A stretch of DNA of 64,000 nucleotides from Dysgonomonas sp. 520 (lineage in GTDB: Bacteria > Bacteroidota > Bacteroidia > Bacteroidales > Dysgonomonadaceae). Where the stretch lies: contig NZ_QVMP01000002.1 of NCBI RefSeq assembly GCF_010501095.1, positions 49,280 to 113,279 on the forward strand, written 5' to 3'. Under the pieces are notes generated by a model, which was not told the DNA's origin, made no database searches, and saw only the letters and a list, made by a program, of their open reading frames with translations. The translations under genes and the position numbers were made by a program. Shown one piece after another: positions 1,837 through 55,505 of this stretch. The first letter of the stretch is position 1. Each line of letters begins with the position of its first letter.

Positions 1837-2347
1837 TTAATGCCAATCGGTATTTGGATTTACTATAACAAAAAGGTTTTTTTTTATTCTACTTTTTTTA
1901 CTGCCGCGCATCTGTCGATGCTTGCCTTCGTTCATTTTGTCTTGACACAAAACGAACCAAAAGGTCAAGACTGTGACTTCTATACGACCCGCAGGCAACT
2001 TGCTTCGCAGAACAAAAATAACTCGGACCTGTCAGTCCTCAAACAGCTTTTGTTCTGTTTGCTCCGCTTCGTTGTGCGGGTGCCCCGTATATTAGCCAAT
2101 GTCATTTCTCGCGTAAGCCGGGACGTGCATCAGTGACGCAGCCGGGTTACCTGACCGGTGAAGTTGACATAAAAACTAAATTCTGTTTGAGCCTGAAAGG
2201 CGAGTTTATTTAGTTTAGTCAACAAGCCGCATTGTCAGGTCGGCGAGGAGCGAAGCACTGTTTTTTGCAACTTTTTGACACCAAAAAGTTGATAAGAAAA
2301 AAGTAAAATAAAAAACCAACCTTTCTCAACTACTGATTCGCATTATT
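1837..2347. mobile_element. TIR-bounded non-coding element, family A (511 bp)
   Basis: Left TTAATGCCAATCGGTATTTGGATTTACTATAAC; right CTCAACTACTGATTCGCATTA: inverted copies of one end sequence; no ORF. Confidence 0.65.
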
Positions 2348-16685: not shown

Positions 16686-17085
16686 AATATACTAATCAGC
16701 ATTTTGAAATAGGTTCTTTTTTTATTTTACAAATTGTATTTTTCCGACAGGAACAACGCATACCGGGCGTAAGATTTTACACCCTCTACTTTCGGAGGTG
16801 TCCAAAAAGTCTTTTCTATCCCTAATCCCCTAAAGGGGACTTTTGAAACAGCTGAGAATCAGAGCCCTGTCGTCGCATGGGATTTACAATCCCATGCTTG
16901 GCTACTATCCGGATTTTAAATCCGAAAAATAATAACTTCGGGGTTACAAACCCCCGAAGAACAGAATTTGGGAACTTTTTGGACGCCTCCTTACAAAACG
17001 CACCCTACACCCGAAAATGTAATTTACGCAAAATTAAAAGAACGTTTTTGCTATAATAAATTCAAACTACTGATTAACATCAATT
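16686..17085. mobile_element. diverged family A element between trkA and trkH
   Basis: Right end AAAGAACGTTTTTGCTATAATAAATTCAAACTACTGATTAACAT; left end CTAATCAGCATTTTGAAATAGGTTCTTTTTTTATTTTAC resembles reverse complement of the 2347 end. Confidence 0.55.
16794..16990. mobile_element. nested inner inverted-repeat element (197 bp)
   Basis: GGAGGTGTCCAAAAAGT (16794-16810) and ACTTTTTGGACGCCTCC (16974-16990): 17-bp inverted repeat with one mismatch. Confidence 0.75.
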
Positions 17086-33869: not shown

Positions 33870-35384
<1,515 letters not shown>

Positions 35385-35450
35385 TCATTTCCAACCAAAA
35401 ACTGCGTGATAGTGTAAGAAAATATTCGCTTTTTAACTAAAAACTCTATA

Positions 35451-35746
35451 TTAATGCCAATCAGTAGTTGGATTTACTATAACCAAAACGTTCTTTCAAA
35501 TTGTACAATGTCTTCCTAGTAGGGGCGTAAAATCTTACGCCCTCATATCAACAATATCGGGTGAATTTTCTTGTTCTCCGGGGTTTGTAACCCCGGAGAA
35601 CAAGATGTTAACTGTTATGTGTTCTTTAGATGCTTCGCGTTGCTCAACATGACAAATCTTTCGGGCAGGCTTCTAGTCTGCCCCTACACCCCCCCTCTCT
35701 TTTGGAGAGGGGGGAGAGGTGTATCTCAACTACTGATTGGCATTAA
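35451..35746. mobile_element. TIR-bounded non-coding element, family A (296 bp), perfect 20-bp TIRs
   Basis: TTAATGCCAATCAGTAGTTG (35451-35470) and CAACTACTGATTGGCATTAA (35727-35746) are exact reverse complements. Confidence 0.85.
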
Positions 35747-35762
35747 CGACCAATTATTCCTT

Positions 35763-36596
35763 CTAGTTGATACGAACACAAGCTCCACCGGATATCTGTA
35801 GCCCTCCTTCTCCTGCTCTTACCTTAAAAACTCCGTTCTCCCTAGCGAAACTTGGTCCAGGGCTAGACCAAAACAAAACATATACTCTCTGATTGTCTCT
35901 TTCTGTTGTAATTATTTGATTCATAGTCCCAAATAAAGATGTTCCCTTTCTTGCTGTGTTCTCGACTTCAAGATCCACTATCATCAGAGGTTGTTCATAA
36001 GATCCTAAAAAACGTATACCATTATTAGTATAATCATCAGGGTTATTCGTTGATCGGAAGATTAATGCAGAGCGTCCCAGTTTTTCATATAAGGTACTGG
36101 CAACAGGTGTGCTTACATCAATTCGCATAGCTAAAGAAATAAAATAAGTACCTCTACTACCTAAAGTAAAAGAATAACCGGTATCATAAAACATAGTATC
36201 TGTAAAATTTATAACAGGAGATGTGTATCCGGGAAGTTGAGCAAATTCACTAAACCCCGGAGCAGACCATCTTCCGTTGCCATTGGCATCGCTGGTTAGT
36301 ACCATGCTATTGCCTTGTGTTCCATCCTGTAAGCGAAAACCACCTCCTTGAGTACTGCTTCTTATATCCACTTTGGTTTGAGGATCGTTTGTCCCTACGC
36401 CTAGGTTTCCACTACTATTTACTATCACATCGTCCGCCACATTTGTGTCCCCGCTTGTATCTCGTGCAGCATCAATGTGAAACACGCCTTGTGGCGATTC
36501 GGTATTGACTCCTACTTGTGCTGTTAGTGTAGCTGTAAAAAATAGAGCCGATAATATTAATAACTTCTTCTTCATTGTTTTTTGATTTTTTTTCAT
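35763..36596 (-). CDS. secreted/surface hypothetical protein with GVGTNDPQTKVDI-type motif
   Basis: Signal peptide LLILSALFFTATLTAQVGVNTESPQGVFHIDA; LGVGTNDPQTKVDIR motif seen in Bacteroidetes surface proteins. Confidence 0.65.
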   Translation of the reverse strand: MKKNQKTMKKKLLILSALFFTATLTAQVGVNTESPQGVFHIDAARDTSGDTNVADDVIVNSSGNLGVGTNDPQTKVDIRSSTQGGGFRLQDGTQGNSMVLTSDANGNGRWSAPGFSEFAQLPGYTSPVINFTDTMFYDTGYSFTLGSRGTYFISLAMRIDVSTPVASTLYEKLGRSALIFRSTNNPDDYTNNGIRFLGSYEQPLMIVDLEVENTARKGTSLFGTMNQIITTERDNQRVYVLFWSSPGPSFARENGVFKVRAGEGGLQISGGACVRIN

Positions 36597-51543: not shown

Positions 51544-51923
51544 TAATGCGAATCCGTATTTGAAAAATATTTTTTTAAAAAATTAAGAAAACCGCAAAGA
51601 TATAAAGATCGCAAAGTTTTTCGATCTGTCATTGAGTCGCCTTCGCTCCTCGAACGCTGTTTCTGAACGGAGTGAAGGATCTGTTTTTTTAGATGCTTCG
51701 CGTTGCTCAGCATGACAAACATTTCGGGCAGAGCAGAGCCCTGCCCCTACAAACGCCCCCTCGTCGCATGGGATTTGCAATCCCATGCTTGGCTACTCTC
51801 CGGATTTTATATCCGAAAAATAATAACTCCGGGGTTACAAACCCCAGAGAACAAAGAAATGATTTGTATAATATTAAAGAACGTTTTTTTTGTTATAATA
51901 AAACCAACTACTGATTGGTATTA
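51544..51923. mobile_element. TIR-bounded non-coding element, family A (inverted orientation)
   Basis: Left TAATGCGAATCCGTATTTGA; right AAAGAACGTTTTTTTTGTTATAATAAAACCAACTACTGATTGGTATTA matches the reverse complement of the 35451 end. Confidence 0.7.
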
Positions 51924-55361: not shown

Positions 55362-55505
55362 AAATTGATAAAGTTTATATTGAATGATATTGTATGTGGC
55401 TTATTTTTTAGTCGATTACGTTGAGTATTGTTTTAAATTCGACCTGTTTTTCAACTACTGATTCGCATTATTCAGAAAGAACGGGAAGAATAAAACAAAC
55501 GATTT

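Follow-up and report, generated by a model that had tools for sequence, protein, structure and literature searches.

What is a 296-bp segment with inverted repeats at its ends and a row of hairpins inside doing between two genes of Dysgonomonas sp. 520, and how did the hairpins come to lie there? The element (positions 35451-35746 of the 64,000-nucleotide stretch that we analysed, called the window throughout) sits between guaB, the gene for IMP dehydrogenase (33870-35378), and an ORF at 35763-36596, both of which run leftward. We consider it highly probable that the element is a non-autonomous MITE of an IS982-like insertion sequence, and that its hairpin cargo resembles the REPs associated with RAYTs (REP-associated tyrosine transposases).

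The sequence-only reading of this locus had described perfect TIRs of 20 bp. Inverted arms that are perfect over 20 bp are indeed present in the window (35451-35470 and 35727-35746), but when the insertion sequence and 43 copies are compared the edge of the element falls at ATGCC, so that the TIR proper is the 17 bp ATGCCAATCAGTAGTTG and the outer three bases on each side (TTA/TAA) are flank (Table 1). Two of the three palindromes reported in the interior, GGGCGTAA-N4-TTACGCCC and GGGCAG-N9-CTGCCC, are present as described (at 35523-35542 and 35663-35683), while the third, given as a 16-bp stem around a TGT loop, is a genuine hairpin with a stem of 17 bp (arms 35569-35585 and 35589-35605). Beyond these three there is a fourth palindrome, CCCCCCTCTC/GAGAGGGGGG.

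Table 1. Parts of the element at 35451-35746 and related copies in the window.
Feature	Position	Strand	Remark
Left TIR, ATGCCAATCAGTAGTTG	35454-35470	+	TIR of the IS982-like element is ATGCGAATCAGTAGTTG
Right TIR, same 17 bp as left	35727-35743	-	
Left target-site 5-mer TATTA, fits WANTW	35449-35453	.	Right 5-mer (35744-35748) is TAACG, no duplication
Subterminal segment GATTTACTATAACCAAAACGTTCTTTCAAATTGTACAATGTCTTCCTA, end type A	35471-35518	+	REP junction in the 8-locus class
GTAG-type REP, GTAG + GGGCGTAAAATCTTACGCCC	35519-35542	+	
17-bp perfect hairpin, CTCCGGGG..CCCCGGAG family	35569-35605	.	Similar arrays flank the C68 RAYT gene
GATGCTTCGCGTTGCTCARCATGACA repeat	35629-35654	+	Also in element 51545-51922; similar repeat downstream of the C68 RAYT gene
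GTAG-type REP GTAGGGGCAGACTAGAAGCCTGCCCGAA	35660-35687	-	C14 RAYT gene has a similar type within it and upstream
CCCCCCTCTC..GAGAGGGGGG hairpin (module P)	35690-35714	.	
Sister MITE, REP/hairpin interior	51546-51921	.	Perfect TSD TAGTA
Sister MITE, body-type interior	1840-2343	.	
Sister MITE, degenerate ends; REP and TTCGGGGTT hairpin interior	16686-17083	.	
Solo end, partner not found	55452-55469	-	

Is this one member of a family? Within the window the TIR is matched six times at up to three mismatches, compared with 0.01 matches expected, and the related ends that had been noticed from the letters alone (1837/2347, 51544/51923, 16686/17085 and a solo end at 55452-55471) are real. Across the host genome, a 3.9-Mb draft in 68 contigs, we counted about 124 ends versus 4 for the reversed pattern that served as a control; this catalogue was made stretch by stretch and may lack some weak ends on the last contigs. 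Pairing of ends gave 47 pairs and left about 41 ends unpaired, and 43 of the pairs enclose 97-609 bp of non-coding DNA, so the further two-ended copies whose existence the sequence-only reading had proposed to check do occur, and the family is short, non-coding, bounded by TIRs and present in many copies, as a MITE family should be. Two types of end, A (...GTTTATTATAACAAAAACGTTCTTT) and B (...GAAAAGTGTTCTTTT), can be distinguished within the TIR. Long end pairs of 826-2,297 bp (L023, L048, L050, L067) were rejected as chance pairings; the three examined hold ordinary genes or no clear ones, and no transposase. Likewise, a 1,379-bp pair in the genome G025 (L122) proved to be a solo end and an adjoining 567-bp MITE with an unrelated ORF between them. 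At one locus (L054, G000:C43:135271-135650), MITE ends stand nearly back to back, the second starting 4 bp past the first element.

A 5-bp target-site duplication (TSD) with the consensus W-A-N-T-W is perfect in 21 of the 43 copies, whereas 10,000 shuffles averaged 2.5 and never exceeded 9. Apparent duplications of 3 bp and 7 bp were discarded as separate classes, being the same 5-bp duplication with bases removed or with fixed element bases added. The copy at 35451-35746 has no duplication: because its flanks read TATTA and TAACG, either its own duplication was lost or the copy is a recombinant. For three copies carried by relatives (L131, L141, L103) the orthologous loci in congeneric genomes are free of the MITE, and these empty sites cover body-type copies in other genera rather than the 35451-35746 locus. 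The duplications and empty sites that the sequence-only reading had proposed to look for are thus found in the family, though the copy that it described has no duplication.

Which enzyme could have moved these ends? Many contigs of two genomes (G032 and G014) break in an identical sequence that opens with the MITE TIR, and searching with this contig-break end uncovered a complete element in Dysgonomonas sp. 216 (G013), which runs from ATGCGAATCAGTAGTTG to AATACTGATTCGCAT, has the TSD TAATT and holds one ORF of 303 aa. Copies that share its ends and length (n = 22; 1,044-1,085 bp), nine of them with a perfect 5-bp TSD, lie in records labelled Dysgonomonas, Paludibacter, Parabacteroides, Tannerella, Bacteroides reticulotermitis, Alistipes and others. 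The best NCBIfam model for the 303-aa ORF is that of IS982 (NF033520, E 1.9e-31), and since the score of 109.5 bits is below the cut-off of 130, we call the partner IS982-like and not IS982; for the Pfam models DDE_Tnp_1_3 and DDE_Tnp_1 the cut-offs are barely exceeded. Its layout (approximately 1 kb, one ORF, TIRs and a short TSD) is that of the IS982 family, classical IS982 TIR and TSD lengths aside. The end of the insertion sequence had no viral or plasmid match. In Dysgonomonas alginatilytica (L087-L120) and Dysgonomonas sp. PH5-45 (L125-L129) many contigs end inside the IS982-like element, which points to many near-identical, probably recent copies in both genomes.

The MITE-like nature proposed for the element is therefore supported by copies across the genome, by the 5-bp TSDs of the family, by the empty sites and by an autonomous insertion sequence with the same ends. 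The autonomous transposase that had been sought was found in related Bacteroidales and not in the host itself, in whose draft genome we detected no copy of the matching IS982-like element or its transposase, and because the partner was not found there the copies in this genome are probably immobile now. The host does have a canonical IS982-family element (L161:1261-2184), which scores above the IS982 cut-off; it was rejected as the partner, its ends being different and its identity 26%.

Could the ends instead belong to a tyrosine transposase, so that ends and hairpins alike are moved by a single enzyme? An arrangement in which long TIRs flank a RAYT gene (TIRYT) has been reported (PMC3733652), and RAYTs are present in this genome. 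Neither RAYT locus (L186, L187), however, has MITE ends, and in many genomes these ends, with the same TSD, sit on the IS982-like element with its DDE enzyme. To our knowledge, 5-bp TSDs are also not expected of HUH Y1 transposases. We regard a single tyrosine enzyme as extremely improbable, and the suggestion that a RAYT with the same ends might be found had to be abandoned: it is the IS982-like element that shares the ends, while the RAYTs match the internal hairpins.

The hairpins themselves have the features of GTAG REPs, namely GTAG followed by a palindrome of 20-40 bp, many copies (86 sites of the GGGCG type in the genome) and inverted doublets. The genome encodes two Y1 transposases, one on contig C68 and one on C14, which score 104.6 bits (over the cut-off) and 68.3 bits (under the cut-off of 80), respectively, with the RAYT model NF047646. 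On both sides of the C68 gene lie GGGTTGCAAACCC / GGAGTTTGTAACTCC arrays of the same kind as in the MITEs, and the C14 gene (L169:1462-2013) has two in-frame internal REPs, GTAGGGGCGGGGTTCTACTCCGCCCG and GGGCAGAGCAGAGCCCTGCCCCTAC, with two more just upstream. RAYT genes with the same REPs adjoining are thus present, one of them under the model cut-off, and we infer that the C68 and C14 RAYTs move these hairpins.

How closely are REPs and MITEs associated? Among 50 exact GGGCG hairpins, 16 are enclosed by two MITE ends, a further 21 have a single end no more than 500 bp away and 13 have none, and standalone REPs with no MITE occur at L182, L183, L170 and L180. A facing end within 500 bp was therefore found for 37 of the 50 REPs sampled, compared with a control rate of 0.35% per 480-bp window; the preference of REPs and MITEs alike for intergenic DNA would on its own increase the overlap several-fold, yet hardly to 74%. 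In the relative G006 most REP doublets stand alone; by hand count, only 7 of 88 are situated inside a MITE end at a distance of up to 500 bp.

Reading of the copies and mapping of their modules divided the interiors into two lineages, a body of about 500 bp (b1-b2-b3 or b6-b4-b5) and REP arrays. Similar bodies occur inside copies of G005, G018, G019, G006, G025 and G032, and the body is conserved across several genera although it is non-coding and has no Rfam match (L130-L141, L091-L106). In the arrays the REPs are of the types GTAG+GGGCGNA..TNCGCCC, GTAG+GGGCAG..CTGCCC and GTAG+GGGTGGGG..CCACCC, frequently as inverted doublets, and are accompanied by CATGGGATT, CCGGATTT and CTCCGGGG hairpins and two longer repeats. 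Their order is mostly R2 or R3, -R1, -R4, -P, R5, from which copies depart by losses, by insertions or by inverted doublets. Both end types occur with both lineages, and we found end swaps, truncations, inversions of REP pairs and chimaeras of body and REP interiors (L018, L028, L038). The chimaeras show recombination between copies, while within each lineage the modules are mostly collinear and not freely shuffled. The idea of interchangeable cassettes consequently survives in part, in the swaps, inversions and chimaeras, and has to be given up for the near-collinear order within the two lineages.

A major question arising from these mosaics is whether REP-bearing units ever moved. Did the MITE insert with its ancestral body and merely serve as a landing strip on which REPs arrived later, locus by locus? 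The REPs outside MITEs, the mostly standalone REPs of G006 and the RAYT genes in the genome all accord with such a course. It is difficult to reconcile with the 24 end-to-first-REP junctions, which include classes common to 8, 4, 3 and 2 loci: matching junctions recur at unrelated loci, several of which have perfect duplications, and the element at 35451-35746 belongs to the 8-locus class. REPs arriving independently would seldom hit an identical base twice, so that each REP-bearing unit was most likely copied whole; for some shared junctions recombination at a similar subterminal stretch is an alternative. We therefore judge purely local accumulation of REPs unlikely, and the proposal that the ends mobilise hairpin cargo is supported by these junctions.

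Under the explanation that we favour, a MITE with IS982-like ends and REP cargo, an IS982-like transposase would have acted in trans on the MITE ends, mobilising any DNA that they enclosed. The cargo, GTAG-type REPs and other palindromic repeats resembling those at the two RAYT genes, may have come from REPs that landed in, or recombined into, MITEs; the REP-bearing MITEs would then have been re-mobilised, as the junctions suggest, and recombination between copies could have swapped ends and joined body-type to REP-type interiors. Weighing against it are the missing TSD at 35451-35746, the failure to find a matching transposase in the host genome, the below-cut-off scores of the IS982-like transposase and the C14 RAYT, the coverage of the empty sites, which concern body-type copies of other genera, the 13 REPs that lack a nearby end, and the shared intergenic preference, which inflates the association. 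That the IS982-like (DDE) and RAYT/REP (HUH) systems jointly built composites, in which REPs ride between the ends of another transposon, is a more tentative claim, to which we give slightly less than an even chance.

Have the elements instead been retained for a function in RNA or regulation (as hairpin arrays, terminators or mRNA 3′ ends) and not as mobile relics? Both strands fold very strongly (z of -11.0 and -13.7), the elements are intergenic and for several copies a few bases separate the element from the close of an open frame, and a transcribed hairpin RNA between the genes is possible. Strong folding, however, is a consequence of palindromic composition and the interiors vary between copies. 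Searches of the element returned no Rfam family and no terminator-like site. Retention for such a role is, in our estimate, improbable, and the MITE explanation remains the one that we prefer.

Both parts of the element are of known kinds, and the habitual nesting of REP hairpins in a MITE is the unusual point. The IS982-derived MITECca01 of Cardinium likewise combines IS982-family ends, high copy number and a mostly intergenic position in a Bacteroidota host, but it is about 240 bp long with a uniform interior and its parental insertion sequence is present (PMC9769881), whereas here the interiors are mosaics with REPs and no partner was found in the genome. GTAG REPs have been recorded in Proteobacteria, Cyanobacteria, Chloroflexi and PVC, with no Bacteroidetes among their hosts and most REPs unassociated with other repeats (PMC3733652); our system shares the GTAG and palindrome, the inverted doublets and the RAYT genes with REPs beside and inside them, and differs in its Bacteroidales host and in that most sampled REPs lie in or at MITE ends. 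BrickBuilt of Porphyromonas gingivalis is also a Bacteroidales MITE with insertion sequence-type ends and internal repeats, although its ends are of the IS5 type and its repeats an internal minisatellite (PMC4596501), in place of IS982-like ends and palindromic REP arrays. A composite of IS982-like ends and REP arrays was not found in a limited search of the literature. If our explanation is correct, REPs have a second route of spreading, carried along inside a transposon to which they are unrelated. The analysis also gives a MITE family that is widespread in Dysgonomonadaceae its likely autonomous partner and places GTAG REPs with RAYTs in Bacteroidales, and the family offers many natural junctions for testing how REPs amplify.

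A minor observation concerns the edges of the elements. At five copies (L017, L020, L053, L055, L077) the TA of the duplication and the first A of the element together form the TAA stop of a frame at least 120 aa long, the element giving the last base, and 12 of the 43 copies, as a raw count, have such a frame end no more than 15 bp away.
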